Of a DNA stretch of 64,000 nt, positions 47,258 through 64,000 are shown in pieces (position 1 is the first letter of the stretch; every line of letters begins with the position of its first letter). The stretch is from Thalassotalea crassostreae (GTDB lineage: Bacteria > Pseudomonadota > Gammaproteobacteria > Enterobacterales > Alteromonadaceae), in contig NZ_CP017689.1 in the NCBI RefSeq assembly GCF_001831495.1, forward strand, positions 2,976,001 through 3,040,000, written 5' to 3'. The position numbers were made by a program, and so were the translations under genes. The notes beneath the pieces were generated by a model. The model was not told the origin of the DNA and did not search any database. It was given only the letters and a program-made list of their open reading frames with translations.

Positions 47258-47881
47258 TTATACCGCATGCCAAGATTTGGCTAATAATAATTTTTCACCT
47301 AAGAAAACTTTACCTTCAAATACCGCGCCCGATTTAACAATACCAACCCCTTTAGGCGTGCCAGTCATGACGATATCGCCATCTTCTAAGGTGGTAAAAC
47401 TTTGTAATTCAGCAAGAATATCATCGGGTTTATACATCATTAGCTCAACACCACCTTGCTGTGTTAGTTTGCCATCAATGCTTAATTGCAACGTTAATTG
47501 CTGAACTAATTGCTGTTCAATATTATCAATAGCGACAAAGTGACTCAGCACCGCGGCACCATCAAATGCTTTGGCTCGCTCCCACGGTAAACCTTTTGCT
47601 TTCAATGTTGATTGCAGTTCGCGCTTAGTCAAATCTAAGCCAAAGCCTACAGCCACAAACTTACCTTGTCGGTACAAAAAACACAGCTCACCTTCATAAT
47701 GAAGTGCTTCTTGATGAAACGAATTTAACGTACTAGATATTGCTGAATTAGGTTTTGAAAACACTACCATATCGGTTGGAATTTCATTGCCTAATTCTTC
47801 AATGTGAGCAACATAATTGCGACCAACGCAAAGTACTTTTGACGGTGTGATTTTTTGATTTTCAAAGTTAACTGTATTCAT
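47258..47881 (-). CDS. Fumarylacetoacetate hydrolase family protein (YcgM-like)
   Basis: 207 aa from the ATG at 47881; the GTG at 47914 adds 11 residues without better support. FAH fold motifs: VLCVGRNYVAHIEEL near 17, PTDMVVFSKPNSAIS near 36, HYEGELCFLYRQG near 61 with metal-binding Glu residues, and GDIVMTGTPKGVGIVKSGAVFEG near 168. Such enzymes act on 2-oxo diacids or as acylpyruvases / oxaloacetate tautomerases. It follows the 3-hydroxyanthranilate operon by about 97 bp and may or may not belong to it. Confidence 0.82.
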   Translation of the reverse strand: MNTVNFENQKITPSKVLCVGRNYVAHIEELGNEIPTDMVVFSKPNSAISSTLNSFHQEALHYEGELCFLYRQGKFVAVGFGLDLTKRELQSTLKAKGLPWERAKAFDGAAVLSHFVAIDNIEQQLVQQLTLQLSIDGKLTQQGGVELMMYKPDDILAELQSFTTLEDGDIVMTGTPKGVGIVKSGAVFEGKVFLGEKLLLAKSWHAV

Positions 47882-47978
47882 TATTCGCTCGGTAAATTTA
47901 TGCCCGTGCCACACATTAAACCTGCGACACTAGGTTATAACTGGCAATACTAAACTGCCACTATAATACACAGCCTGC

Positions 47979-48983
47979 TTATAAATTAAAGAATGACATC
48001 GAATTAGCACCTAATATTTTTGTTTTCGCTTGCTCACTTAATACCTTATTTTCACGAACTAAGGTACCAACTCGCTGCTCACCTAACGGGAATGGTGAAT
48101 CTGAGCCTAGTAAAACTCTATCTTCGCCCATTACATTAGTAAGAAGTTGTAATGAATCATCACTAAAAACAGCAGAATCAACATAAAACCGATCGCAATA
48201 AGATGATGGAATATTCGGACAGTCTTGGCGAACAATATCTCTATGCTTCCATGCATTATCTACACGGCCTAATTGAAAGGCAAAGCTACCACCACCATGA
48301 GCAAAACAAATTTTCAAATCTTTGGAAATTCGCTCGAAGGCACCTGACAAGATCAACGACAAAATAGAAAGCTGGGTTTCAGCAGGCATTGCCACTAACC
48401 ATTGCAGCATGTATTTTGGCATGCGGTCACCACCAAGCATATCCCAGGGATGCACTAGTACTGAAATATTTTCACTCGCACAATGTTGTAAAAAGGTTAC
48501 GAGCCCTTCGTCATCTAGGTTTTTATCACCAACATGATTGCCGATTTGCACGCCAACATGGCCGTTTTTAGCCGCTCTGCTGACTTCTTCACAAGACTTA
48601 TCTATATCTTGTAATGGTACTTGCGCAAGTGCTTTTAAGCGATTGCTATCATGGCTACATATATCTAATGCTAAGTCGTTAAATAATTGCGCACAATAGT
48701 GAGCTTGCTCAGCTTTCTTTGCATAGGCAAATAAAATAGGAGTGGCACTCATAATTTGAATATCAATATTATCTCTATCCATTTCTGCAAGACGAACAGC
48801 AGGATCCCAACAAGCCTCATAGACAGGTCGAAAATCTTTATCGCCAAGCATCAACATTGCTTTACCTGGTTCTGTATGGCGCATCGAAGGCCAAGGATTC
48901 GAGCTAGGTTCAGCGCTAAACTTTGCTGCTAGATCTGGCCATTGTTTTGGCAGAAAGTGAGTATGCATATCAACTACAGGCAT
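47979..48983 (-). CDS. nbaD: 2-amino-3-carboxymuconate 6-semialdehyde decarboxylase (ACMSD)
   Basis: 334-aa amidohydrolase-fold decarboxylase. It diverts ACMS away from spontaneous quinolinate formation to 2-aminomuconate semialdehyde. Zinc ligands: MHTHF (His7, His9), a third His in [11 protein letters not shown] near 177, [20 protein letters not shown] near 227, and the Asp in [12 protein letters not shown] near 293. It is the last gene of the E-H-J-I-G-F-C-D operon. AGGAA precedes the start. Confidence 0.92.
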
Positions 48984-49045: not shown

Positions 49046-49600
<555 letters not shown>

Positions 49601-49623: not shown

Positions 49624-50055
49624 CTATAAAGGTTTATAGGCAACTACTTTTATCTCGATTAAAAGATGTGGATGCGGCAATTGGTGCACTGCAACCGTCG
49701 TTCTTGCCGGTCCTGTTTCATCAAAATATTCACCATATACTTTGTTATAGCCAGCAAAGTCGTTCATGTTTACCAAGTAACTGCTTACTTCAACAACATT
49801 CGATAAATCAGCGCCTGCTGCTTTCAATATTTCATTTATATTATCGATCACTGCACGTGTTTGTTCGGTGATCGACAGATTGGTCGCTCCCATTTCATCA
49901 ACTTCAACACCAATAAAGCTATTATCAGGTCGTCTCGAACTAGTACCCGATACGTAAATGAAATCCCCTGCTCGTTTAAAGTGTGGAAAGCGACCTCTTG
50001 GTTTAGCCTTGCCTGAAATCACTTGGCTATCGTTTGGTTTTGTTATCTTGGTCAT
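49624..50055 (-). CDS. nbaF: 2-aminomuconate deaminase (RidA/YjgF family)
   Basis: 143-aa RidA-fold protein. The conserved catalytic Arg is in [25 protein letters not shown] near 117, with [18 protein letters not shown] near 32. RidA proteins hydrolyse enamines and imines, and here the position in the operon indicates deamination of 2-aminomuconate to 4-oxalocrotonate. It lies 29 bp after the nbaG-like gene. Confidence 0.87.
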
Positions 50056-50084: not shown

Positions 50085-50876
50085 TTAACCGGCAGTAACA
50101 GTAAATTCCGCAACGCCAAGTTTTTCACAATGAAGTTTGACATGAACACCAGGTTTAATCGGTTGCGCTGCTGTTGCCGCACCGGCTAATACGATTGAAC
50201 CGGCAGGTAACACTTTTCCAGCTTCGCCAGCAACTCTCGCCGCGGCAGCTAAAGAACGATAGGGATTCCCTAAAATAGCGGCAGTAGAACCTATTTCAAC
50301 CGCTTCTCCATCAAATTCCATAACCATACCTAAGTTAGAAATATCAGTCGTTACTTGTTGCCATGCACCAATGGTAAAACCTGAAGAAGAACAATTGTCA
50401 GCAACCACATCTTCTAATGAAAATTTGAAATTATTGTAACGAGAATCAATAATCTCTAATGCTGGTGCGACCGCTTCAACTGCAGCCATCACTTCTGTCA
50501 TGGTGACATTCCCTGATAACGGTTTTTTCAGTAAAAATGCGATTTCTGGTTCCACTCGAGCATGGATGAATTTATCAAACGCTACTTCACCACCTTCTTC
50601 GATAAACATTTCATCGGTTAGTGGCCCCCAAATAAGATCATCAACCCCCATTTGGATCATTTTAGCGCGACTAGTAAAACCCATTTTTATGCCGACTTGC
50701 TGCTCGCCTCGATCAAGACGACGCTGCAACGACATATCCTGCACCAAATAAGCTTGCGTAAGTGATAATTGCTCACCTTGACTAGAAAGCTGCTCAATGG
50801 CGACGGCATTAAAAGCGGCATCATCAACCTGCTTAGCTAATTTTGAAAGTTTTTCATTCGTTGTAATGTCAGTCAT
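50085..50876 (-). CDS. nbaG: 4-oxalocrotonate decarboxylase (hydratase/decarboxylase family)
   Basis: 263 aa. It belongs to the FAH-related hydratase/decarboxylase family: VGIKMGFTSRAKMIQMGVDDLIWG near 60, metal ligands in HARVEPEIAFLL near 104, and VAPALEIIDSRYNNFKFSLEDVVADN near 131. A paralogue lies two genes upstream. Assignment as decarboxylase rather than hydratase rests on gene order as I recall it for the nba operon. The two enzymes normally form a complex because the decarboxylation product is unstable. It is 2 bp after the aldolase. Confidence 0.8.
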   Translation of the reverse strand: MTDITTNEKLSKLAKQVDDAAFNAVAIEQLSSQGEQLSLTQAYLVQDMSLQRRLDRGEQQVGIKMGFTSRAKMIQMGVDDLIWGPLTDEMFIEEGGEVAFDKFIHARVEPEIAFLLKKPLSGNVTMTEVMAAVEAVAPALEIIDSRYNNFKFSLEDVVADNCSSSGFTIGAWQQVTTDISNLGMVMEFDGEAVEIGSTAAILGNPYRSLAAAARVAGEAGKVLPAGSIVLAGAATAAQPIKPGVHVKLHCEKLGVAEFTVTAG

Positions 50877-50878
50877 AA

Positions 50879-51925
50879 TTATGCTCTTTGCTTTATTAAA
50901 TCTAAGGCGACATCAACAATCATATCTTCTTGTCCACCTACCATTTTTCGTTGCCCAAGCTCTACTAATATTTCTCGGGTATCTAGTCCGTAATGTTTCG
51001 CTGCCTGCTCAGCATGGCGTAAAAAGCTTGAATACACTCCTGCATAGCCTAGTGACAAAGTTTCACGGTCAACCTGTACCGGTCTGTCTTGTAATGGGCG
51101 CACTAGTTCGTCTGCCGCATCCATTAAGGTATATAAATCTGTTCCATGGTCCCAACCAAGGCGAGCCGCGGCGGCGATAAACACTTCAAGAGGTGCATTG
51201 CCAGCACCGGCGCCCATACCAGCAAGTGATGCATCAATACGAGTAACACCATGCTGAGCCGCAACAATTGAGTTGGCAACACCAAGAGATAAATTATGAT
51301 GAGCATGAATACCTAGCTCAGTTTCCGGTTTTAACACCTCTTTATAAGCTCTTGCTCGAGCGGCAATATCATCCATATTCATTGCCCCACCGGAATCCGT
51401 TATATACACACACTGGGCTCCATACGACTCCATTAATTTAGCTTGCTGTGCTAGAGCCTCTGGTTCACTCATATGTGACATCATCAAAAAACCACACGTA
51501 TCCATGCCAAGTTCACGAGCATATTCAATGTGCTGTTTGGCAACATCAGCTTCGGTACAATGAGTAGCAACACGCACAGATCGAACGCCGCTATCCCATG
51601 CCCATTTCAAATCTTCTTTCACTGCAATACCGGGCAAGATCAAAGTGGTTAATTTCGATGACTCAATCACATCCGCAACCGCTTCAATCCACTCTTTATC
51701 CGTATGCGCGCCAAAACCATAGTTAAAGCTTGAACCACCTAAGCCATCACCATGGGCAACTTCAATTGCATCAACACCGGCGCGATCTAAAGCCTTGGCA
51801 ATATTTTGCACGTGTTCAATGGAATAATTGTGACGTATCGCATGCATACCGTCCCTTAATGTCACGTCTTGTATATAAAGTTTTTTAGCCGTGTCATTGC
51901 TTGTATCATTTGTTTTGTTAGCCAT
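50879..51925 (-). CDS. nbaI: 4-hydroxy-2-oxovalerate aldolase
   Basis: 348-aa class II aldolase (DmpG/MhpE type) that splits 4-hydroxy-2-oxovalerate into pyruvate and acetaldehyde. Motifs: [18 protein letters not shown] near 18-35 with metal and catalytic residues, [19 protein letters not shown] near 197, and [14 protein letters not shown] near 238. It is 10 bp after the acetaldehyde dehydrogenase gene, with which it channels acetaldehyde. Confidence 0.95.
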
Positions 51926-51935
51926 AATTAAGTCC

Positions 51936-52934
51936 TTACGCTATAACGAAGTTGCTTTGCTCGGTACTATATTTACACTGCGCAATACGTTCTGCTGTGC
52001 CCTGTGCCGCCGAAGTCATAATGTCGAGATTTCCTGCGTAAGCTGGTAAATAGTGAGCAGCACCTTCAACCTCTAAAAATATCGACGACTTTAAACCAGA
52101 GAAATCGCCATAACCTGGAATATGCAGTGGTGCATCTTTTTCAAATCGCTCAAATTGCACTTGTTGTTTTAATCGATAGCCGGGTACATATGATTGTACT
52201 TTTTCGGTCATTGCTTCGATTGATTTAGCAATTTCGGCTTCAGTCGTACCGCTCTCTTCAGGTAGTTCACTTAACACCAATACCGTATCGCGCATCATCA
52301 TTGGCGGCTCTGCCGGATTCATAATGATAATGGCCTTACCTTTTACTGCGCCGCCTACCTGTTCAATGGCACGCGAAGTTGTTTGTGTAAATTCATCAAT
52401 ATTCGCTCGTGTTCCTGGACCGGCTGATTTAGATGAGATTGATGCTATGATCTCTGCGTAATGAACTTTACTAAGTTGACTAATAGCAGCAACCATTGGG
52501 ATTGTTGCTTGGCCACCACAGGTGACCATATTAACGTTGCCTTGCTCCAGGTTATCTTCAATATTTACTACCGGTACCGTATAAGGGCCGATTGCAGCCG
52601 GCGTTAAATCGATGACTTGTTTGTTGTGCTTTTGCAGAACATCATTGTGATGCTTATGGGCATAGGCAGAAGTTGCATCAAAAACTATCTTAATGTCTTC
52701 AAATTCTGGCAAGTTGATTAAGCCATCGATCCCCTGGTGGGTTGTGGCTACGCCAAGTCGCTTCGCTCTTGCAAGACCATCGGAATCAGCGTCTATGCCA
52801 ACCATTGCCGCCATCTCTAAGTTTTGAGATGTGCGTATTATTTTGATCATTAAATCAGTGCCAATATTTCCTGAACCGATAATCGCAACTTTTACTTTTT
52901 CAGTTGCCTTGGTTGTATTGGTTGCTACTGTCAT
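51936..52934 (-). CDS. nbaJ: Acetaldehyde dehydrogenase (acylating)
   Basis: 332-aa DmpF/MhpF-type enzyme turning acetaldehyde, NAD+ and CoA into acetyl-CoA. The Rossmann motif is [17 protein letters not shown] near 16. The catalytic Cys is in [19 protein letters not shown] near 134, and the substrate domain has [24 protein letters not shown] near 166. The stop is 1 bp from the aldolase side spacing of a tightly packed operon. It starts 1 bp after the hydratase gene. Confidence 0.96.
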
Positions 52935-52935
52935 T

Positions 52936-53763
52936 TTAATTATCCTTGCTATTGTCTGCCGCGAACGCTACGCGAACTGTACCTAAACCAGAGATGCGAG
53001 TTTCGATAGTGTCACCTGGCTGCACCGCCACCATAGGGCCTAACGCACCGGTCAATAAAATATCACCGGCTTTTAAAGGCGCACCGTTTTCAACGAAGGT
53101 TTTAGCTAACCATACCGCGGCATTTAGGGGGTTACCCAAACACGCTTGACCAGCACCCGTCGATATTTGCTCACCACGTCTTTCCATAACCATGCCGCAT
53201 AAACGCAAATCTAAATCGTCTAATGCAACAGGTTTACTGCCCAGCACAAACAACCCAGATGACGCATTATCAGCAATCGTATCGACAATATTAATATTCC
53301 AATCAGCAATGCGGCTGCCGACAATTTCAATTGCAGGTAAGGCGTAAGCGGTGGCATTAATAATGTCGACAACCGTTGGGTTGTTAACATCAATATCTGC
53401 TTTAAGTACCAAGGCAATTTCGGCTTCAACTTTAGGCTGCATAATTGCATCAAGTGCAACCGTTTCACCATCACCAATAAACATATCCGCATAAAGCACA
53501 CCAAAATCTGGTTGCTCTACACCTAATTGCTTTTGTACGCTTTTAGACGTTAGCCCAGCCTTAACCCCAACAGTTCGGCGCCCTGCTTTTTGCCAATATT
53601 GACTATTGATGTACTGCACTGCGTAGGCAGAATCCAGACACTGTTCGGGTAATAAATCTCGTACCGGCTCACAAGGCACGCCCTGTTGATAAGCCGTTCT
53701 AATATTTTTCGCAGCGTTAATTATGTCTTCACGCTCGCTTAATTGTTTAATCTTGTCTGTCAT
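52936..53763 (-). CDS. nbaH: 2-oxopent-4-enoate hydratase
   Basis: 275 aa from the ATG at 53763, chosen because AGGAA lies about 7 bases upstream; a GTG at 53805 would add 14 residues. Family motifs: [31 protein letters not shown] near 65, metal-binding [12 protein letters not shown] near 110, and [26 protein letters not shown] near 138. It adds water to 2-hydroxypenta-2,4-dienoate to give 4-hydroxy-2-oxovalerate. The distinction from its paralogue at 50085 is by operon order. Confidence 0.82.
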
Positions 53764-53831: not shown

Positions 53832-55310
53832 TTAAAGCTTGATACAAATGTTGGTTGGTTCACTGTAGAAATTGAGCGAATGAACGCCACCTTCACGGCC
53901 AACACCAGAAAGCTTCATTCCGCCAAATGGCGTGCGTAGATCACGAAGATACCATGCGTTAACCCAACAAATACCGACATCCATTTGCTCAGCAACGCGG
54001 TGGGCACGTTGTAAATTTGTCGTCCAAACCGTTGCAGCTAAACCATAGCGACTGTCATTTGCCATATTGATCGCTTCATCTTCATCATCAAACGGTGTTA
54101 TGTGACAAACAGGGCCAAACACTTCTTCTTTTACAATTTTGCTTTGTTCACTTAAACCAGTAAAAATGGTTGGTTCAACAAATGCACCATTGTCACGAGC
54201 GTCACCAAACTTAGGAACACCGCCGCCGGTGACAACTGTCGCCCCATCACTAATCGCACTTTCATAGTAAGCAACAACTTTGTCACGATGTTTATGGGAA
54301 ATTACCGGCCCCATATCTGTGCTTTGATCTAACGGCCAACCAATTTTTAATTGTTCAGCTTTATCTTTTAATGCAGCAACAAACTTATCGAATATTGAGC
54401 GATGTACATACAAACGTTCGGTACATAAACAAACTTGACCGCCATTAGTAAAAACCGAACGAGCAGTACCCGCAACAGCCTCATCAAAATCGCAATCCTC
54501 AAAAATTATTCCCGCATTTTTGCCACCTAATTCAAACGACAATGCTTTTACGCCATCCGCCGAGGCTTTCATAATGGCCGAGCCTGTTCTAGATTCGCCA
54601 GTAAAGGTAACCGCGTCGACATGCTCATGTTGAGTTAGAAACTCGCCAGCCGACTGATGACCAAAGCCATGCAATAAATTAAACACACCTTTAGGAATTC
54701 CAGCATCGTGCATTACTTCGGCAAGCAACGTAGCCGTTGCTGGAGTTTCCTCCGATGGTTTAGCAACAATGACATTGCCAGCGGCCATCGCTGGCGCTAA
54801 CTTCCAAGTCATTAGTAATAACGGTAAATTCCATGGTGCAATCACGGCAACCACTCCAAGCGGTTTATTAACTGCGTAATTTAACGCTTTACTACCATCT
54901 TGCGTATGGGTGTGAAAACATTCGGTTGATTGAGATTTTGCTAAATCCGCAAAAATTCTAAAATTTGCGGCACCGCGTGGAATATCGATTGTAGTTGCTT
55001 GAAAAAAGGATTTACCGGTGTCAGCCATTTCAGCTGCGACAAATTCATCAAAGCGAGCTTCTATTCCATCAGCTACTTTATGCAAAAGTGCACAACGTTG
55101 GTCAACAGAAAGTTGTCCCCATTCACCTTTTAGTGCCCTTTTAGCCGACATTACCGCATCATCAACCATGGTTTTGTCAGCTTCAGCAACTTGATTAATT
55201 ATGCTGCCATCGACCGGGTTAATGTTATCAAACAACATGGCAGAACTAATAAACTCACCGTTTATATAGTTTCTCAGTACAGCATCTGCGTGGGGGATTG
55301 GAGTATTCAT
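53832..55310 (-). CDS. nbaE: 2-aminomuconate 6-semialdehyde dehydrogenase
   Basis: 492-aa NAD aldehyde dehydrogenase of the AmnC/NbaE/HMSD type. The NAD-binding APWNLPLLLMTWKLAPAMAAGN is near 160. The general-base Glu is in KALSFELGGKNAGIIFEDCDFDEA near 257. The catalytic Cys is in FTNGGQVCLCTERLYVHRS near 287. It oxidises the product of ACMSD and is the first gene of the operon. A palindromic site lies about 40 bp upstream. Confidence 0.9.
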   Translation of the reverse strand: MNTPIPHADAVLRNYINGEFISSAMLFDNINPVDGSIINQVAEADKTMVDDAVMSAKRALKGEWGQLSVDQRCALLHKVADGIEARFDEFVAAEMADTGKSFFQATTIDIPRGAANFRIFADLAKSQSTECFHTHTQDGSKALNYAVNKPLGVVAVIAPWNLPLLLMTWKLAPAMAAGNVIVAKPSEETPATATLLAEVMHDAGIPKGVFNLLHGFGHQSAGEFLTQHEHVDAVTFTGESRTGSAIMKASADGVKALSFELGGKNAGIIFEDCDFDEAVAGTARSVFTNGGQVCLCTERLYVHRSIFDKFVAALKDKAEQLKIGWPLDQSTDMGPVISHKHRDKVVAYYESAISDGATVVTGGGVPKFGDARDNGAFVEPTIFTGLSEQSKIVKEEVFGPVCHITPFDDEDEAINMANDSRYGLAATVWTTNLQRAHRVAEQMDVGICWVNAWYLRDLRTPFGGMKLSGVGREGGVHSLNFYSEPTNICIKL

Positions 55311-55736: not shown

Positions 55737-57071
55737 ATGTCAACAGGATCTATCGAATCATCTAATACACACAACACGGATAAAACAATGAAAACAAAAA
55801 ATATATTTTACGGTTGGTGGATAGTTCTAGGCTGTATTATAGGTATATCTTTGGGCTATAGTGTTATCGCTATGTCTTTCGGCACATTTATAAAAGAATT
55901 TGAAACGTCATTTGGATGGAGTCGTGGTCAAATATCTTTCGGCTCTACCATTATTGGTATTACCGCTATTTTGTTTTTTCCTTATGTCGGCACGTTAGTC
56001 GATAAGTATGGGGTGAAGAAGGTGATGATCCCTTCTACCTTTCTATTTGCTTTTACCATTGCTTCAATGTCATTGCTTACCGCCTCTATCTGGCATTTAT
56101 ATGCAATGTGTATTTTAATCCCACTTCTTGGCGCAGGTACTGCCCCACTCACCTATTCAAAATTATTGGTAAGCTGGTTTGATAAAAAACGCGGTCTTGC
56201 ATTAGGTATAGGTCTTGCTGGTGTTGGACTCGGTACCACGTTAGTACCGATTATTGCGTCGAAGTTTATCGAACTTTATACATGGCGTGAGGCATATATT
56301 GCAATTGGCGTGCTAATACTTTGTCTCGCCTTTCCTATTGTAAAATGGGTGTTTAAAGAACAGCCTAGCGATCTCGGACTACATCCTGATGGCGATTCAG
56401 CGGCAGAAGTTGAGCAGCAAGCACTTAAAAATGCAAATGATAATGCGAAAGATAAAAACGTTAAAATTGGTTTCACCGCCAAGGAAGCATTAAAACAAAA
56501 AACATTTTGGTTAATGTTCGCATCTTTTGTTATTACCGGTTTAACAACCTCAACCTTGTTAGTACATTTGGTACCTATGATGATGGACCAAGGATTAACA
56601 CTAAAACAAGCTGTCGGTACCTTTGCTTACTTAGGAATGTCTATTATCGGTGGTCGCTTACTTGCTGGTTATCTAATGGACAAGTTTTTCGCACCATTTG
56701 TGGTGGTAGTCTTTATGTTTGGCCCAGTAATCGGATTAGCGGCATTTGCAATGGGGGCTACTGGTGAAGCAGCGGCACTATGTACTGGATTAATTGGTAT
56801 TGCCATTGGTGCTGAATTTGACGTTATGGCCTACTTTACCAGTCGCTATTTTGGTCAACGAAGTTTTGGTGTTATTTATGGCTATGGCTACTCAGGCTTT
56901 AAACTTGGTGCGAGTATTGGCCCATTAATTATGGGTATCGCATATGATGTAAATGGTCGCTATACCGAAGTACTTTGGGCAATGTCTGCCACTATGATCA
57001 TCGCTTGTGTCTGTATTTTAATGATGGGTAAATATCCACAATTACCAAAACGCACTATCGAAAAAACCTAA
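55737..57071 (+). CDS. MFS carboxylate transporter (oxalate/formate-antiporter-like)
   Basis: 444 aa from the ATG at 55737, which has GAGAGAGG close upstream; the TTG at 55722 is inside that site. Twelve helices are expected. The start of the membrane part, KNIFYGWWIVLGCIIGISLGYS, is typical of OFA and aromatic/monocarboxylate MFS carriers. GTLVDKYGVKKVMIPS near 80 is the loop 2-3 motif, and FKEQPSDLGLHPDG near 210 is characteristic. It probably imports the substrate of the downstream locus. Divergent from the nba-like operon. Confidence 0.85.
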   Translation: MSTGSIESSNTHNTDKTMKTKNIFYGWWIVLGCIIGISLGYSVIAMSFGTFIKEFETSFGWSRGQISFGSTIIGITAILFFPYVGTLVDKYGVKKVMIPSTFLFAFTIASMSLLTASIWHLYAMCILIPLLGAGTAPLTYSKLLVSWFDKKRGLALGIGLAGVGLGTTLVPIIASKFIELYTWREAYIAIGVLILCLAFPIVKWVFKEQPSDLGLHPDGDSAAEVEQQALKNANDNAKDKNVKIGFTAKEALKQKTFWLMFASFVITGLTTSTLLVHLVPMMMDQGLTLKQAVGTFAYLGMSIIGGRLLAGYLMDKFFAPFVVVVFMFGPVIGLAAFAMGATGEAAALCTGLIGIAIGAEFDVMAYFTSRYFGQRSFGVIYGYGYSGFKLGASIGPLIMGIAYDVNGRYTEVLWAMSATMIIACVCILMMGKYPQLPKRTIEKT

Positions 57072-57136
57072 ATTTTAATCAATCTAAACTCCCAGGATCA
57101 ATAACGCAGCCTTATTGTTATTGATCCGCCATTTTG

Positions 57137-57168
57137 GCATGTATACAAAACCTTCATTTTGCGTACAT
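57137..57168 (+). promoter_or_regulatory. Candidate GntR operators before the aspartate dehydrogenase gene
   Basis: ATGTATACAAA (TGTATACA palindrome at 57140-57147) and TTGCGTACAT (57159-57168) lie 20 bp apart centre to centre. This is the same two-site layout as in the MFS promoter, and the second copy differs from its counterpart by one base. They end 27 bp before the ATG. Confidence 0.6.
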
Positions 57169-57195
57169 TAAAAGTAAACCAACAAAGTAAAGACA

Positions 57196-58008
57196 ATGAA
57201 CAAAACATTAAATGTAGGAATTGCTGGATTAGGTACTATCGGATTAGTCGTAGCAAAAGCCCTAGAAGACGGTATCGACGGCTTAAAATTAACCGCAGTC
57301 ACGTCTGGAAACTTAGATAAAGCAAAACAAAATTTAACTACTATAAACTCAAGTGCAGATGTAATAAGTTCTGCCAAAATGGTTGAAAACGTCGACATTG
57401 TTATCGAATGCGCACCAACTTCGGCATTCATGAATATTGCCAAACCAACTTTAGAACAAGGTAAAACCTTAGTTACGGTTAGTGGAGCGGCAATTTTACA
57501 ACACCCTGAAATCATCGATATTGCCAAACAAAATGGAGGCCAAATTATTCTTGCGACTGGTGCACTGTTAGGGCTCGACGCCGTGCGTGCGGCAGCAGAA
57601 AGTACAATTCACTCGGTCAACATGGTCACGCGAAAGCCGCCAACTTCGTTAAAAACAGCTAAATATATTGTTGAAAAAAATATCGACTTATCTAACTTGC
57701 AGGAGCCTTTACAAGTATTTAAAGGCAGTGCTCGTGAAGGTGCGGAAAAATTCCCTTCTAATGTAAATGTTGCTGCCGCTCTTGGTTTAGCTGGCGTAGG
57801 TGCTGACAAAACTCAATTGGAAATTTGGGCTGATCCGACAAAAACCAGAAACACCCATTACATCAATGTTGACGCCGATAGCGCCAGCTTTGCTTTAACT
57901 ATTGAAAATGTACCAACTCTGGAAAATCCAGGTACCGGTAAAATTACTGCATTAAGCGTTATTGCAGCGGTAAGAGCCATTACCTCGTCAATTAGAGTTG
58001 GTAGTTAA
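57196..58008 (+). CDS. L-aspartate dehydrogenase family protein (NadX-like)
   Basis: 270 aa. The Rossmann start is VGIAGLGTIGLVVAKALED. The family core follows: TRKPPTSL near 142, GSAREGAEKFPSNVNVAAALGLAGVG near 173-198, and ADPTKTRNTHYINV near 211-224 with the conserved Asn-Thr-His of AspDH. ENPGTGKITALSVIAAVRAI replaces the usual NPKTS by NPGTG. Characterised members oxidise aspartate to iminoaspartate (oxaloacetate plus ammonia) or reverse this. In this catabolic setting the real substrate may be another amino or imino acid; no nadA or nadC is nearby. Confidence 0.83.
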   Translation: MNKTLNVGIAGLGTIGLVVAKALEDGIDGLKLTAVTSGNLDKAKQNLTTINSSADVISSAKMVENVDIVIECAPTSAFMNIAKPTLEQGKTLVTVSGAAILQHPEIIDIAKQNGGQIILATGALLGLDAVRAAAESTIHSVNMVTRKPPTSLKTAKYIVEKNIDLSNLQEPLQVFKGSAREGAEKFPSNVNVAAALGLAGVGADKTQLEIWADPTKTRNTHYINVDADSASFALTIENVPTLENPGTGKITALSVIAAVRAITSSIRVGS

Positions 58009-58031
58009 AAAATTTAATTTTGGAGAAAAAC

Positions 58032-58475
58032 ATGACGAAAAAAGTAATTAAACTAAAACACCTTGCGATGGCATCACAAGATCCAGATAAAAGCAGAGAT
58101 TTCTTTGTTAACGTTTTAGGCTGGTCAGTAGCTGGCGTTGTTGCAAGCAGAAATGCTAACGGTTATTACGTTACCGACGGTAATGTTAATTTAGCGATTT
58201 TAAATTTTAAAAATGGTCCTGCCGCAGGTAAAGAGTTTCCACAAGGCTATGTCGGTCTACACCATATTGGCTTCCAATGTGATGACATCGAGCAAATGGT
58301 TGTAGACTTCCAAGACAATGGTTATCAACCGAGACACGACGTTAATTTAGCGCAAGGTTTAGGCAAAAATCCGGCTAAAGATAATGCCGAATATAAAATG
58401 AACGGCCCGGAAAATATTATGATCGATATTTCTGAACGTGGCTGGGTTGGCACTGAAACATACAAAACATTGTAA
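58032..58475 (+). CDS. Single-domain VOC (glyoxalase/extradiol-dioxygenase fold) protein
   Basis: 147 aa from the ATG at 58032, with GGAG 6 bases upstream; a TTG at 58020 only extends the frame. The VOC pattern is visible: IKLKHLAMASQDPDKSRDFFVNVLGW near 4-30 with a metal His, YVGLHHIGFQCDDIEQMVVDFQDNGY near 74, and a late Glu in ENIMIDISERGW near 130. This gives a possible His-His-Glu metal site. It could be an isomerase, lyase or small dioxygenase; the sequence does not decide. Confidence 0.75.
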   Translation: MTKKVIKLKHLAMASQDPDKSRDFFVNVLGWSVAGVVASRNANGYYVTDGNVNLAILNFKNGPAAGKEFPQGYVGLHHIGFQCDDIEQMVVDFQDNGYQPRHDVNLAQGLGKNPAKDNAEYKMNGPENIMIDISERGWVGTETYKTL

Positions 58476-58506
58476 TATATTATCGATTGGGCACTAGAAT
58501 TTTGGC

Positions 58507-59235
58507 ATGCTAACGACAGAGATAAGCTTATTTATTATTAGCACATTAACATCGACCTTAGCAGCCATATGCGCTATGGGAGGTGGAATGATCTTAGTGT
58601 TAGTACTGCCATTTTTCGTACCGGCTAGCGCAATCATTCCAATTCATGGAATCGCTCAATTTGCCAGTAATAGCTCAAGGTTAATATTTTGCTTCAGTGC
58701 GATTTGTTGGCCATATGTCAGTCAATTTGTTATTGGAGCAGTGTTTGGTACCGCAATTTTTAGCGCACTTTTAATAAACTTATCGAGCCAATTTCTGCCC
58801 TTGTTTATCGCTTGTTATTTATTATTGTCTTTGTGGTTTAAACCAATACAAAACGTAATTAGCAAATTTGAAAATATGTATATGGCGGGGGCATTTCAAG
58901 CCGGTTTTGGTTTACTTGTTGGCGCACCAGGGCCAATCACAGTAACCTTACTTTATAAAAATTTAACCGATAAAGAGCAGATTATTGCGACAGCGTCATT
59001 GCTGATGGCGATAACAAACTTAAATAAGGTGCTAGTTTATCTGTTTATTGGTTTTATATTTAGCGATTACTGGACACTCATCTTAGCCTCTATTTTGGGC
59101 GCAACCTTGGGTTCTTTGATTGGTAATAAACTTCGAAACAAGATTAACAACGACTATTTCATGGTGTTACTAAAATCAATACTGACTATTCTTGCATTGA
59201 TTATCATCGGCAAATCGCTGATAGCACTTTATTAA
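58507..59235 (+). CDS. TauE/SafE (TSUP) family membrane transporter
   Basis: 242 aa, almost wholly hydrophobic with about 7-8 helices. TSUP landmarks are CAMGGGMILVLVLPFFVP near 22 and GAFQAGFGLLVGAPGPITVTLLYKN near 127-151. Characterised family members export sulfite, sulfoacetate or related organic anions. It lies 31 bp after the VOC gene and 8 bp before the ferredoxin, so it belongs to the same operon. Confidence 0.83.
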   Translation: MLTTEISLFIISTLTSTLAAICAMGGGMILVLVLPFFVPASAIIPIHGIAQFASNSSRLIFCFSAICWPYVSQFVIGAVFGTAIFSALLINLSSQFLPLFIACYLLLSLWFKPIQNVISKFENMYMAGAFQAGFGLLVGAPGPITVTLLYKNLTDKEQIIATASLLMAITNLNKVLVYLFIGFIFSDYWTLILASILGATLGSLIGNKLRNKINNDYFMVLLKSILTILALIIIGKSLIALY

Positions 59236-59243
59236 GGAAACTT

Positions 59244-59552
59244 ATGATTAAAATAACCTTTATTGAAGCCGATGGCAGTGAAAAAGTGGTAAATGCCGAA
59301 GCAGGCTTAAGTTTAATGGTGGCTGCCGTTGAAAATAACGTTAAAGGTATTCAAGCAATTTGCAATGGCTGTTGTAGTTGCGGTACTTGTTTAGTATCGA
59401 TTGAAAACCGTTTTATCGCGCATACATCGACAAAGTATTCAGGCGAAGAGCAGGTTCTAAGTAAATTGAATAAACAACAACCACAACACCGTCTAGCTTG
59501 CCAAGTCATTGTTAAAGAGGATTTAAATGGCATGAAAGTATCCGTTAACTAA
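59244..59552 (+). CDS. [2Fe-2S] ferredoxin (adrenodoxin/putidaredoxin type)
   Basis: 102 aa. Cluster ligands are Cys40, Cys46, Cys49 and Cys86 in the C-x5-C-x2-C ... C arrangement (CNGCCSCGTCLVSIENRF), with extra cysteines at 43 and 44. Such ferredoxins feed electrons to Rieske oxygenases or P450s. Neither an oxygenase nor a reductase is in the window, so its partner must be encoded beyond the right edge or elsewhere. It is the last gene of the plus-strand unit. It is distinct from the ISC ferredoxin at 789-1127. Confidence 0.9.
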   Translation: MIKITFIEADGSEKVVNAEAGLSLMVAAVENNVKGIQAICNGCCSCGTCLVSIENRFIAHTSTKYSGEEQVLSKLNKQQPQHRLACQVIVKEDLNGMKVSVN

Positions 59553-59589
59553 CGTTAACATTAATCCATTCGCGGCTTGAAAACTTGCT

Positions 59590-60252
59590 TTATTTTTGCG
59601 CCATTAAGTAATCTAAAGTCCCCATACTGGTGTTGGAGATGTGGTTTTTCATTGCCAAAGTTGCTTGTTCTTGGTTTCCACTAATTACCGCATCAACCAG
59701 TTGTTGATGTTCTGCAAAAGACGTTTCTAATCTATCTCTTTTCTTGAATAACCAAGGTTGACGATACAAACTTAAGCGCTTTCTTAAGGTGGAAATAGAT
59801 TGCTCTAGCGTTGTGTTGCGAGAGCCCATATGAATTGCTGAGTGAATTTGATTATTAATTGATGCAAACGTTTCGATATCTTCCACTTCTACTGCTAATT
59901 TAGATTGTTCATGCAACCGTTGTAATTGCTTACGCTCAACAACACTCATACGAGTGGCGCTTAGCCCAGCACAAAGAGCTTCTAACTCAGCAAGTGCTTC
60001 ATACATATCAGCCAGCTGCTCTATATTAAGCTCAATAACAGTGACGCCTTTATGTGCTTTTGACTCTACTAATCCGCTATTATGTAGTAACCTAAACGCT
60101 TCTCTGATCGGGGTTCGTGAAGCACCGTATTTATCAGCAATATCCTGTTCTTCTAAACGCTGTCCAGGTTTAATCTCGCCAGAGATTATCGCACTACAAA
60201 GTTGATTATATATTTTGTCAGATATGGTGATACCAGCCATCAGAAAAGCCAT
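59590..60252 (-). CDS. GntR-family regulator with FCD domain
   Basis: 220 aa. The N-terminal winged helix has EIKPGQRLEEQDIADKYGASRTPIREAFRLLHNSGLVES near 26-64. The C-terminal all-helical FCD domain has likely metal/ligand residues in INNQIHSAIHMGSRN near 130 and FAEHQQLVDAV near 175. It is convergent with the ferredoxin gene and downstream of the aldehyde dehydrogenase. The start could instead be the ATG at 60240. It is the only regulator in the second catabolic locus and the natural candidate to bind the TTGYATACAA-type sites. Confidence 0.92.
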   Translation of the reverse strand: MAFLMAGITISDKIYNQLCSAIISGEIKPGQRLEEQDIADKYGASRTPIREAFRLLHNSGLVESKAHKGVTVIELNIEQLADMYEALAELEALCAGLSATRMSVVERKQLQRLHEQSKLAVEVEDIETFASINNQIHSAIHMGSRNTTLEQSISTLRKRLSLYRQPWLFKKRDRLETSFAEHQQLVDAVISGNQEQATLAMKNHISNTSMGTLDYLMAQK

Positions 60253-60303
60253 GATTATTAGAGATATAAGCTAGTTTACGAAAACCTAACTAACATGCAA
60301 GAG

Positions 60304-60333
60304 AAAAATACAAACGTTGCATATTGCATACAA
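60304..60333 (-). promoter_or_regulatory. Candidate GntR operator upstream of gntR
   Basis: TTGCATACAA (60324-60333) lies in the 108-bp gap between the aldehyde dehydrogenase stop and the regulator start. A right half-site ATACAA (60308-60313) sits exactly 20 bp away, so the spacing again matches the other two promoters. It implies autoregulation. Confidence 0.55.
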
Positions 60334-60360
60334 CGCTTGCTATAAGGGTAGGGTTTTGGG

Positions 60361-61836
60361 TTAACTATCTAAGTTCATACAAAATACTTTTGTTTGCGTC
60401 ATTTCTTTAATCGCAAATTTTACGCCTTCTCTGCCCATACTGCCGCGTTTTGCACCACCAAATGGCATCGCATCCAATCGATAATCGCTAGAATCATTAA
60501 CCATTACACCTGCAACGTCTAATTGCTTAGAGACCTGCATAGCGGTATTGATATTGCTAGTAAATATGGCTCCATGAATGGAGAAATCGACATCATTAGC
60601 TTGTGCAATTGTTTGCTCAAGATTGCTAAAGGGAAATAAACTCACCACAGGACCAAATGCTTCTTGGCATACGAGCTTTTCATCGATAGCAACATTATCA
60701 AGGGCGCTAGGGTGATAACAAGCCCCTTCGCGCTTGCCGCCAACAAGTAAATTAGCGCCATTTTTAACCGCTTCATTTACCCAATTTTCGATACGTATTG
60801 CTTCATTTTCATTGATCATAGGCCCGACATCGGTTTTATCAAGACATTGATCACCAACCTTAAGCCGCTCGGTTTGCTCGATAAATTTGCGTTTAAATTG
60901 CTGGTAAATTCCTTGTTCGATATAGATACGTTGTACGCCGATACAGTTTTGACCTACCGCCCAATAGGAGCCAGAAACACAACTTTCAACAGCTTTATCT
61001 AAATCACAATCGTCCATAACAATAACAGGAGAGTTTGCGCCCAACTCCATTGCTAACTTTTTAATGCCGGCATTTTTAGCAATGATTTCTGCAGAAGCTT
61101 CACCGCCTGTATAAGTGACCATTGCCACATGTTTACTTGCCACCAATTGGTCACCAAAATCTTTGGCATAACCGGTTAACACATTCACTTGCCCTGTTGG
61201 CAAGCCACTTTCAATGAGTACTTCAACCAATTTCAAAGCAGATAATGGTGCTTGCTGCGAAGGTTTTAATATAACTGAGTTACCCGCAGCAAGCGCAGGT
61301 CCAAGCTTATGCGCTGCCAAATTTAATGGGTCGTTAAAGGGAGTGATTGCAACAATAACCCCTAAAGGGACATGTTCGTAATAACCAATTCGGTTTTCTC
61401 CGCCACTAAAACTATCAAATTTAACTGTTTCGCCAGTTAAACGCGTTGCTTCTTCTGCTGACAAATTAAGTGTATTTACACAACGGGTCACTTCTTTGCG
61501 AGCGGCAACAATTGGCTTGCCTGTTTCAACCGCAATGGTTAATGCAAACTCTTCAAGACGTGCTGTTATTTTCGATGCCGCAGTTTTTAATAACAAAGCG
61601 CGCTCATGACTTGCCTGGTTTTGATTTGCTTTAAACGCTTTGCATGCGCTAGAAATAGCTAACTCTACATGATTAACGTCAGCACAAGCCACACGTTGAA
61701 TTAATTCACCATCGAAGGCGTTAGTTATGTCCATGGTGCGTTTGGCACCTTGCCACACGCCATCAATTAAAATGGTATCACTAGAGTAACTAAGACAGTT
61801 TTGTTTTTCGTTCAAAGACGTGACTAAAGCTTGCAT
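60361..61836 (-). CDS. NAD(P)-dependent aldehyde dehydrogenase
   Basis: 491 aa. Catalytic landmarks: AITPFNDPLNLAAHKLGPALAAGNSVILKPS near 160-190, the general base in KKLAMELGANSPVIVMDDCDLDKA near 255, the nucleophile Cys in YWAVGQNCIGVQRIYIEQ near 290, and QEAFGPVVSLFPF near 392. QNCIGVQRI is the pattern of lactaldehyde / succinate-semialdehyde / sulfolactaldehyde-type dehydrogenases. It begins 1 bp after the ThDP enzyme stop, so it probably oxidises the aldehyde that enzyme releases. Confidence 0.9.
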   Translation of the reverse strand: MQALVTSLNEKQNCLSYSSDTILIDGVWQGAKRTMDITNAFDGELIQRVACADVNHVELAISSACKAFKANQNQASHERALLLKTAASKITARLEEFALTIAVETGKPIVAARKEVTRCVNTLNLSAEEATRLTGETVKFDSFSGGENRIGYYEHVPLGVIVAITPFNDPLNLAAHKLGPALAAGNSVILKPSQQAPLSALKLVEVLIESGLPTGQVNVLTGYAKDFGDQLVASKHVAMVTYTGGEASAEIIAKNAGIKKLAMELGANSPVIVMDDCDLDKAVESCVSGSYWAVGQNCIGVQRIYIEQGIYQQFKRKFIEQTERLKVGDQCLDKTDVGPMINENEAIRIENWVNEAVKNGANLLVGGKREGACYHPSALDNVAIDEKLVCQEAFGPVVSLFPFSNLEQTIAQANDVDFSIHGAIFTSNINTAMQVSKQLDVAGVMVNDSSDYRLDAMPFGGAKRGSMGREGVKFAIKEMTQTKVFCMNLDS

Positions 61837-61837
61837 A

Positions 61838-63463
61838 TTAAGGTTTATCCTTTCTCAGAACTAAGTCATCATATTCACGAGAGTTTAATATTGCTTCTAC
61901 GATAATTGGGCCGTCCCGATCAAAGGCAGATGTTAATGCCTGATCAAACTCATCAGGTGTAAAGGCTTTAACAACTGGCACGCCGAAAATATTGTCACCA
62001 CCAATAGTGCCACGCTCTCTAATTGGAGTACCATAAATTGGGTTACTTTTCTTTTCTTGTTTAATGCGTATTAACGCCAAGTCATTATCGGTAAACAACA
62101 CAAATACAATCTTAAGGTTTTCACGAACAGCAACAGCAAGCTCACCGGCGGTCATTAAAAATCCGCCATCGCCAACAACTGAACACACTTCGGTATCTGG
62201 ATTATTTAATTTCACTGCAATTGCAGAAGGAATTGCAAAGCCCATCGCCGACCAACCGTTGGTCATAATTTGTTTGCCAAATGCTGGTGTCGGCCATTTC
62301 TGACCAATTAAGTGGATATGAGCACCAACATCACACGTCATAATGCCATCTTGTGGACATTTGTCTCGTAAGATATCTAACGCAGCACATGGTCCAAATG
62401 CCCCTTTTTGCGAAGTCATTTGCGCAAACATATCAGCTTTTCGAATTGCAATGGCCGGTAAATCCCAGTGTTTTTCGTTAAATTTACCTTTAACCAGTTG
62501 ATCAATCGAGTACTTGATATCACCAATTACATCACAAGCTAAGGTGTATTCATTGGTGTCTAAGTCTGTAGCGACAATATCAACACTAACCAATGGCACA
62601 TTCGGGATCCAATCTTCATAATTAAATTCGATTTCATCATAGCCAATACTTAACACTAAATCGGCTTGCTGATGCGTTTGACCAACAACATCACTTAATG
62701 CATGAAATAGTACGCCGGTATAGCATGGGTGAGACTCGGGGATCATACCTTTTGCCATCGGGCTTATCACCATAGGTACTTTGTATTTTTCAGCGAAATT
62801 TATAATTTGCTCATCAATACCACTTGTTACTGCGCGCATGCCTAATGCAATGACAGGCTTTTTCGACTCTGCAAATAATAGCTGCATCTGTTTAATTAAT
62901 GCTTTATCGGCTTTGTTGGCACCAGGAACTGGATAAGGCTTAATATCTTGCTCTTCGGTTAATTCAGCACTCATACCAGCAGGTAAGCCAACATGAACGG
63001 GTCCTGGTACGCCTTCTAATGCAACCTTGGCCGCGTCAAAAATTATTTCTCTAACTTTATCTGCTTCTAAACGCGTGGTTTTTTTAGTAATTGGGGCGAA
63101 TAATGCTTGATGGTCAACGTTCATTTGCACAATGCGATCGCGCTTATTCGGCGCCATTTCATCAGTTAAAGCGATCATAGGTGACCTATCTAAATAAGCA
63201 CTACCAACTCCCGTTGCTAGATTAGTTGCGCCTGGTCCAAAAGTACCAAAACAAACACCAGGAACGCCAGTTACCCGGCCACAAACATCAGCCATAAATC
63301 CTGCGCCCCCTTCATGGGTTGCAAGAATGAAGTCAATGCCATCGGTTTTACGCATAGCTTCCATATAGTCTACCCAGCCACCGCTAGGTACACCAAAAAC
63401 ATGTTTAACGCCCAAGTCTTTTAAGGCATCGACAACTTGTTGCGCGACTAATTTTTTACTCAT
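61838..63463 (-). CDS. Thiamine-diphosphate 2-oxoacid decarboxylase / acetolactate-synthase-like enzyme
   Basis: 541 aa from the ATG at 63463; a TTG at 63475 adds four residues. The ThDP-activating Glu is Glu51 in ATHEGGAGFMADVCGRVTG. The central domain covers about 190-330. The C-terminal ThDP-binding motif is CSVVGDGGFLMTAGELAVAVRENLKIVFVLFTDNDL near 425-460. The sequence resembles the AHAS/benzoylformate-decarboxylase superfamily, but no small subunit gene is present and it is paired with an aldehyde dehydrogenase, so decarboxylation of a 2-oxoacid is likelier than acetolactate synthesis. A weak hairpin (63511-63527) separates it from the gene upstream. Confidence 0.87.
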   Translation of the reverse strand: MSKKLVAQQVVDALKDLGVKHVFGVPSGGWVDYMEAMRKTDGIDFILATHEGGAGFMADVCGRVTGVPGVCFGTFGPGATNLATGVGSAYLDRSPMIALTDEMAPNKRDRIVQMNVDHQALFAPITKKTTRLEADKVREIIFDAAKVALEGVPGPVHVGLPAGMSAELTEEQDIKPYPVPGANKADKALIKQMQLLFAESKKPVIALGMRAVTSGIDEQIINFAEKYKVPMVISPMAKGMIPESHPCYTGVLFHALSDVVGQTHQQADLVLSIGYDEIEFNYEDWIPNVPLVSVDIVATDLDTNEYTLACDVIGDIKYSIDQLVKGKFNEKHWDLPAIAIRKADMFAQMTSQKGAFGPCAALDILRDKCPQDGIMTCDVGAHIHLIGQKWPTPAFGKQIMTNGWSAMGFAIPSAIAVKLNNPDTEVCSVVGDGGFLMTAGELAVAVRENLKIVFVLFTDNDLALIRIKQEKKSNPIYGTPIRERGTIGGDNIFGVPVVKAFTPDEFDQALTSAFDRDGPIIVEAILNSREYDDLVLRKDKP

Positions 63464-63550
63464 TTGAATTACCAACTAAATTTAAGGTTAAATTTCATTA
63501 AGACAATTTATTAAGCTAATGGCTTAACTATTTCTCGTATTTTTAAAAGG

Positions 63551-64000
63551 TTACTGGGCTACGTAACCACTGGCATTACTGTGTACACTTTGGCTTGGAT
63601 TTAAACCCGCCATTTGCAAGAAGCTAAGAATGCTATCGTTGAATTCTTCTGGCTTTTCAAAAAATGCCGAGTGACCACAATTGTCAAATTCAACGATGAA
63701 CGAGCCGATTACTTGTTCTTGCATTAAACGTACCGCCTCAATTGGGAAGAGAATATCGTCTTGACCGCTAACAAACATAATAGGCACATTTAGATTAGCT
63801 AACTGCTCAGCAGATACTTTTTCATCGGCATAATTGCCTGATAAGTTACTTTTATCGGTTTTATTAAAACTGTTTATTTGCTGATAAAGTAACGCTTGCT
63901 CTGGCTGTTTTGTTTGAAAACTTAAACCTAATACCCTTTCTAACTGACTTAAACCTTTAGTTTCAAGACGCGCTTTATCCATTATTTCTGCGATATCGTT
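63551..64000 (-). CDS. Alpha/beta hydrolase, C-terminal part (cut by window edge)
   Basis: 149 codons plus stop are visible; the frame is open to base 64000, so the start and the nucleophile elbow lie outside. The catalytic Asp is in IMFVSGQDDILFPIEAVRLMQ and the His in FDNCGHSAFFEKPEEFNDSILSFL. The pattern is that of C-C bond or ester hydrolases with a GxSxG nucleophile. It has the same direction as the ThDP enzyme, 87 bp upstream, and could be in the same operon. Confidence 0.88.
   Translation of the reverse strand, partial: NDIAEIMDKARLETKGLSQLERVLGLSFQTKQPEQALLYQQINSFNKTDKSNLSGNYADEKVSAEQLANLNVPIMFVSGQDDILFPIEAVRLMQEQVIGSFIVEFDNCGHSAFFEKPEEFNDSILSFLQMAGLNPSQSVHSNASGYVAQ

Follow-up and report, generated by a model that had tools for sequence, protein, structure and literature searches.

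What substrate could be served by a thiamine diphosphate (ThDP)-dependent enzyme, an aldehyde dehydrogenase (ALDH), an aspartate dehydrogenase (AspDH)-like enzyme, a VOC protein, a TauE/SafE carrier and a ferredoxin that are encoded side by side? This gene block lies at the right end (positions 55,737 to 64,000) of the window analysed here, a 64,000-nucleotide stretch of Thalassotalea crassostreae DNA (G000:C1:2976001-3040000) from a genome of 3.86 Mb on one contig. An earlier note had called the block an uncharacterised catabolic locus and had suggested breakdown of either an amino acid sulfonate or an aromatic compound. We found that the odd enzyme set forms the end portion of a longer gene island that recurs in other bacteria, and we hold this reading, which rests on gene content and linkage, with fair confidence. 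The chances are about even, in our estimate, that the locus belongs to an island that breaks down a kynurenine-type compound of exogenous origin. The aromatic part of this compound would be degraded through 3-hydroxyanthranilate (3HAA), a product of kynurenine, itself a relative of tryptophan.

Every gene named in the earlier note proved to be an open reading frame with a clear family match, just where that note had placed it; its title had passed over an MFS transporter and a GntR/FCD regulator in the same span. The genes of the block inside the window are:

55722/55737-57071, + strand: MFS transporter, monocarboxylate/oxalate-like (family match)
57196-58008, + strand: AspDH-like dehydrogenase with NPGTG and GSAREG motifs (PRK13302 match and motifs)
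58020/58032-58475, + strand: VOC1, methylmalonyl-CoA-epimerase-like fold (family match, structure comparison)
58507-59235, + strand: TauE/SafE (TSUP) carrier 1 (family match)
59244-59552, + strand: 2Fe-2S ferredoxin (family match)
59590-60252, - strand: GntR/FCD regulator (family match)
60361-61836, - strand: ALDH (family match)
61838-63475, - strand: ThDP enzyme, acetolactate synthase-like group (family match)
63551-64000, - strand: alpha/beta hydrolase, truncated at the window end (complete gene at L002:4551-5372; family match)

What we take to be catalytic motifs are kept in the AspDH-like protein (NTH), the ThDP enzyme (THEGGAG and GDG...ND) and the ALDH (GQNC and MELG).

We compared the neighbourhoods of ThDP, AspDH and VOC1 relatives in a matrix of 18 genomes entered for carrying VOC1, AspDH or ThDP (tblastn; a match needed 38% identity across 60% of the query), a design that shows linkage, not frequency. 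Short contigs and unfetched flanks were scored as absent, and partial matches at the ends of fetched stretches were left uncounted (ThDP in G368, VOC2 in G386 and 2-hydroxymuconic semialdehyde dehydrogenase in G324). The matrix holds nine genomes of the window's family (including Thalassotalea and Lacimicrobium), a Shewanella and the gammaproteobacterial metagenome-assembled genome (MAG) L011, together with Pseudokordiimonas, five more genomes of its order, and Niveispirillum. The AspDH and VOC1 genes are adjacent in all 18 carrier genomes, across Gamma- and Alphaproteobacteria, mostly with 3HAA genes. TauE/SafE 2 is present in 16 of the 18 and 3-hydroxyanthranilate 3,4-dioxygenase (HAO) in 15, being in L011 of a second, HAO2 type. 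The ThDP enzyme, ALDH, hydrolase, FAH2, ACMSD-like, Rid and dmpH genes each score 14/18, and kynureninase, WDI589, VOC2 and the other lower-pathway genes 13/18 each. Gene order of the island varies between groups, and the genes for the ThDP enzyme, ALDH and kynureninase (KynU) are contiguous in four genomes (Pseudokordiimonas caeni, G740, and three more members of its order, G1167, G1159 and G1221). Taken together, the AspDH-VOC1 adjacency, the 3HAA genes and the contiguous ThDP-ALDH-kynureninase run imply that the set is co-conserved and tied to kynurenine/3HAA catabolism. This bears out the earlier view of a catabolic, co-conserved set, for which a neighbourhood analysis of the ThDP enzyme with AspDH had been proposed. 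LigB-type dioxygenase gene pairs also lie inside the islands of Pseudokordiimonas (L006:16942-18676) and G1167 (L082:7825-9560).

A sample of 196 genomes of the family has VOC1 in 9, HAO in 54, and HAO in all 9 VOC1 carriers. HAO at least 66% identical to that of the window was found in 10 of the 196 genomes, 9 of which carry VOC1. The two genes lie 9-19 kb apart in eight of the nine carriers and on different contigs in the remaining one.

To the left, the block is abutted by a 3HAA meta-cleavage operon:

47258..47914, - strand: small FAH-family protein at the operon end (below all cut-offs)
47979..48983, - strand: ACMSD-like decarboxylase (labelled by its position and by general features of the family; no NCBIfam match)
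49046..49582, - strand: HAO, nbaC (253 bits, cut-off 220)
49624..50055, - strand: Rid-family protein, likely a 2-aminomuconate deaminase (88 bits, cut-off 106)
50085..50876, - strand: 2-oxo-3-hexenedioate decarboxylase-like, dmpH-like (242 bits, cut-off 351)
50879..51925, - strand: 4-hydroxy-2-oxovalerate aldolase (579 bits, cut-off 286)
51936..52934, - strand: acetaldehyde dehydrogenase, acetylating (460 bits, cut-off 282)
52936..53763, - strand: 2-keto-4-pentenoate hydratase-like, dmpE-like (342 bits, cut-off 350)
53832..55310, - strand: 2-hydroxymuconic semialdehyde dehydrogenase family, by context acting on 2-aminomuconic semialdehyde (843 bits, cut-off 693)

The semialdehyde dehydrogenase, the aldolase and the acetylating acetaldehyde dehydrogenase, all over their cut-offs, thus stand in one gene run. 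The set adjoining the block is that with which bacteria degrade kynurenine by way of 3HAA meta-cleavage (HAO/nbaC, ACMSD, semialdehyde dehydrogenase, deaminase and lower meta pathway). Unlike the usual branch, the window copy has neither tryptophan 2,3-dioxygenase (TDO) nor kynurenine monooxygenase (KMO) beside it, but has its own kynureninase nearby and about ten extra conserved genes. A second kynurenine locus about 230 kb away (L048:3231-16071; G000:C1:3252-3265 kb) carries TDO, KMO, HAO, ACMSD-like and lower-pathway genes; a kynureninase match was not found in the 20 kb fetched there. Second HAO-like genes, 48-51% identical to the window HAO, stand beside AspDH, VOC1 and ferredoxin genes at L029:14247-14783, L031:2935-3474 and L011:3773-4303.

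The block extends 5 kb to the right of the window end, with the rest of the hydrolase gene, VOC2, an HpaG-like FAH protein, TauE/SafE 2, a nitroreductase-like protein and a PcaQ-like LysR regulator. Also encoded on this side is WDI589 (L003:5088-6872), a 594-residue protein with no Pfam or NCBIfam match; its relatives in the 13 islands include one with a signal-like start. Farther out are:

14-17 kb beyond the window end: TonB receptor
between 14 and 20 kb beyond the window end: sodium symporter
19-20 kb beyond the window end: kynureninase (325 bits, cut-off 246)

The earlier note had proposed looking on this side for a Rieske or P450 oxygenase, but none was noticed in the frames up to G000:C1:3065000, which were partly scanned for families, P450 not being searched. 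The only Ring_hydroxyl_A protein of the genome sits at 1.778 Mb. The aromatic reading of that note was right in kind, with 3HAA ring cleavage encoded beside the block, but no ring oxygenase was seen there. The classical kynurenate route starts with ring dihydroxylation. We considered it since the ThDP enzyme and ALDH would fit, and set it aside: we noticed neither a Rieske nor an SDR gene in the island, and the one Ring_hydroxyl_A protein lies elsewhere in the genome. For the terms searched, a review of kynurenic acid offers a reference but no passage on the bacterial breakdown of the compound (PMC11354673).

Where might the substrate come from? TDO was found in 5 of 13 distinct carriers (G738 and G450 being counted as one by identical places) and not found in 8, and KMO was found in 2 and not found in 11. 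These searches used one query protein each, at E limits of 1e-20 and 1e-40, on genomes some of which are of 88% or unstated completeness; the KMO query was the G000 protein, and a distant KMO could be missed at E 1e-40. Because most carriers yielded no TDO and most no KMO, the input is probably an exogenous kynurenine-type compound rather than tryptophan. Kynurenine excretion is reported for two Prochlorococcus strains, with the suggestion that heterotrophs living nearby use the compound (PMC10654061).

The AspDH-like protein scores 341 bits against the AspDH model PRK13302 (cut-off 253) and keeps the catalytic region of TM1643 in an alignment; in family, catalytic region and model score it therefore agrees with aspartate dehydrogenase (NadX; TM1643, 2dc1). 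In contrast, all 11 VOC1-linked AspDH sequences carry NPGTG, and in their GSAxE motif the Glu is followed by Gly (EG), whereas the seven other AspDH sequences compared all have N(P/A)KT and (E/Q)A, and TM1643 and 2dc1 likewise have Lys and Ala. Among the best 120 of 7951 homologues, 112 match the first motif, with Gly in 109, Ala in 2 and Lys in 1, and 8 give no match. The KT motif and the Ala that TM1643, 2dc1 and the seven other sequences have in common appear to define the aspartate dehydrogenase family and are absent from the window protein, which, judged by these residues, belongs to a distinct clade. The Lys-to-Gly change in NPKT and the Ala-to-Gly change in GSAxEA both remove a side chain and would thus suit a bulkier substrate; the two Gly sites may line the substrate pocket. 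This double change argues against plain aspartate as the substrate of the clade.

The ThDP enzyme, 86% identical to its counterpart in Thalassotalea sp. ND16A, is closest to acetolactate synthases, yet reaches only 343 of the 509 bits of their cut-off and stays below every curated cut-off among 25 of the 57 families listed. A decarboxylase role is suggested by the adjoining ALDH and by ALDHs of another subfamily beside its 58-64% identical relatives in L008, L010 and L014. The ALDH is likewise below every curated cut-off among 25 of the 45 families listed, scoring 508/650 bits for lactaldehyde dehydrogenase and 402/700 bits for its second-best model, the sulfoacetaldehyde dehydrogenase SafD. 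VOC1 is the best-conserved block protein in Gammaproteobacteria (84-94%), with His10, His77, His78 and Asp132 invariant in 28 sequences. Its nearest solved relatives are methylmalonyl-CoA epimerases; its predicted structure (pLDDT 89.7) gave no lead beyond the epimerase fold, and it scores 33 bits against the curated epimerase model (cut-off 115). VOC2 is extradiol-like (74 bits against cut-offs of 320) and keeps His and Glu sites, but not the Tyr aligned in 3b59; His, His and Glu are presumably the ligand sites of a type I extradiol dioxygenase. For the alpha/beta hydrolase we considered a Hod-type cofactor-free dioxygenase, and none occurs among the best 60 of 268 matches. The ferredoxin of the block could act like XylT, which reactivates an iron dioxygenase.

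From these observations we infer the following reactions. The TonB receptor, the symporter and the MFS transporter would import the compound, and kynureninase would act on its side chain or on a ring-opened form, releasing the (hydroxy)anthranilate part. Alternatively, the AspDH-like/VOC1 pair, the ThDP enzyme, the ALDH, and the FAH and alpha/beta hydrolases may act on the amino- or 2-oxo-acid side chain or ring-opened form, with release of the same part. The AspDH-like enzyme would take, in place of aspartate, a larger compound akin to iminoaspartate (for instance an aroylpyruvate/aroylalanine pair), with VOC1 tautomerising its substrate; the ThDP enzyme and ALDH would convert a 2-oxo acid to an aldehyde and then to an acid. 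The role of the ferredoxin may be to sustain the activity of a ring-cleaving iron dioxygenase. HAO, the ACMSD-like decarboxylase, the semialdehyde dehydrogenase, the Rid deaminase, 4-oxalocrotonate decarboxylase, the hydratase, the aldolase and acetaldehyde dehydrogenase would then carry 3HAA to pyruvate and acetyl-CoA. The block enzymes may act either on the side chain, with 3HAA set free afterwards, or downstream of HAO on nitrogen-bearing ring-cleavage products.

Several observations weigh against this picture. Kynureninase alone would free the aromatic acid, and the other side-chain enzymes look redundant unless the substrate differs from plain L-kynurenine. The island yielded no hydroxylase that would give 3HAA. 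Aligned sites of the kynureninase are occupied by Trp and Gly-Thr, which we take to be bacterial kynurenine-type residues favouring anthranilate over 3HAA. The co-occurrence of VOC1 with HAO (hypergeometric 5e-6) ignores relatedness, and the nine carriers represent three genera; in addition, G277 has an HAO 70% identical to that of the window (G277:C1:2923661-2924173) but lacks VOC1. The search for a ThDP gene gave none within 40 kb around the AspDH-VOC1 pair of Niveispirillum or within 60 kb around that of G1242, and HAO, ACMSD-like and kynureninase genes were not found in the roughly 80 kb fetched around the Shewanella block. The AspDH-VOC1 pair is also rare. VOC1 occurs in 1 of the 274 genomes sampled from the class and in 2 of 385 and 6 of 147 genomes of the alphaproteobacterial samples; of the 295 genomes sampled from the order, 2 have AspDH (at E 1e-60).

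Could the block instead work downstream of HAO? VOC1 would then tautomerise, and the AspDH-like enzyme reduce, 2-amino-3-carboxymuconate semialdehyde (ACMS) or 2-aminomuconate, which are substituted or vinylogous iminoaspartates, and the ThDP enzyme and ALDH would process the resulting 2-oxo acid. Mammals have a 2-oxoadipate branch, of which such a route would be the bacterial counterpart. AspDH-VOC1 form one run with the second HAO gene in L011 and L029 and lie close to it in L031, with two opposite-strand genes between; the pair also stays with 3HAA genes where ThDP was not found (L064/L065). ACMS and oxaloacetate, which the nitrogen-bearing ring-cleavage products resemble, have a common skeleton (PMC11650718). 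Yet the locus already encodes a conventional lower pathway, and the ThDP and ALDH genes of four genomes adjoin kynureninase rather than ring-cleavage genes. We regard this arrangement as unlikely. A route from plain aspartate is unlikely as well. It would run through oxaloacetate to malonate semialdehyde (ThDP enzyme) and malonate (ALDH), and, beyond the PRK13302 score and the TM1643-like catalytic region, it is favoured by the nitroreductase-like protein, which would reduce malonate semialdehyde and passes the malonic semialdehyde reductase model (276 bits, cut-off 152). However, the nearest solved relative of that protein is IstO, the AspDH-like enzyme bears the NPGTG/EG change, oxaloacetate has no need of such a route, and its company with HAO, ACMSD-like and kynureninase genes would be left without an obvious explanation.

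That the block serves another aromatic acid and is merely a frequent neighbour of 3HAA genes appears quite unlikely. Separate regulators (GntR, LysR) and divergent transcription units would agree with unrelated operons, as would the subsets that lack ThDP and the Shewanella block, around which the fetched stretch shows no 3HAA genes, but the linkage persists over Gamma- and Alphaproteobacteria despite changed gene order, and the contiguous ThDP-ALDH-KynU run recurs in four genomes. A route that turns cysteate or a different amino acid sulfonate into sulfoacetate for export by TSUP, the first suggestion of the earlier note, is highly improbable. The AspDH-ThDP-ALDH logic, the two TSUP genes and SafD as second-best ALDH model speak for it, together with a periplasmic binding protein in the Pseudokordiimonas island (L057:9445-10485) whose only NCBIfam match is SsuA (aliphatic sulfonate; 71/163.5 bits). 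Against this stand the kynureninase and 3HAA neighbours, the AspDH clade change and the ALDH score well under the SafD cut-off. No sulfonate enzyme over cut-off was found among the window-genome proteins scanned, the extra genes of the other genomes being mostly unscanned.

Similar clusters occur elsewhere. A plasmid cluster of Nitratireductor OM-1 (L017:5998-16651; Rieske, SDR, hydrolase, VOC, ThDP, AspDH, ALDH) has the same ThDP-AspDH-ALDH trio with genes of ring-cleavage type, but its ThDP enzyme is of family PRK07064 (23% identity), its AspDH is about 31% identical, and it has its own Rieske protein; no HAO or ACMSD-like match was found in the stretch. By ThDP identity and family it is an analogue, seemingly an independent one, and no orthologue. 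AspDH-ThDP clusters of an Ahrensia MAG, Mesorhizobium, Nitratireductor indicus and Leisingera (L007, L008, L010, L014) are closer, with ThDP enzymes 58-64% and AspDH 46-51% identical to those of the window, and carry a PuuE-like hydrolase and an amidase (scanned in L010, annotated in L014). They differ in an AspDH of NPKTG type and, in L008, L010 and L014, in the ALDH subfamily; HAO or ACMSD-like matches were not found in these stretches, kynureninase not being among the queries. The literature searched gave no paper assigning the orthologues of the window genes to a pathway, in line with the earlier note.

Within the kynurenine reading, a more specific proposal has the island devoted to an exogenous relative of kynurenine in cyclised or oxidised form (xanthurenate, kynurenate or a metal-bound form taken up via the TonB receptor). 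Opening of this compound would give a 2-amino-aroylpyruvate as the substrate of VOC1, the AspDH-like enzyme (as a reductive kynurenine-type amino acid dehydrogenase), FAH, and the ThDP enzyme with ALDH, which would feed kynureninase and 3HAA cleavage. We consider this detailed version improbable. If true, the proposal would supply the genes for a bacterial breakdown of quinoline carboxylates needing no ring hydroxylation. More broadly, a patchily distributed island for the consumption of kynurenine-type compounds, in most cases unaccompanied by genes leading to them from tryptophan, would tie the excreted kynurenine pool to particular bacteria. It would also give functions to the ThDP enzyme, the AspDH-like dehydrogenase and the two VOC proteins, which are now known by family alone.

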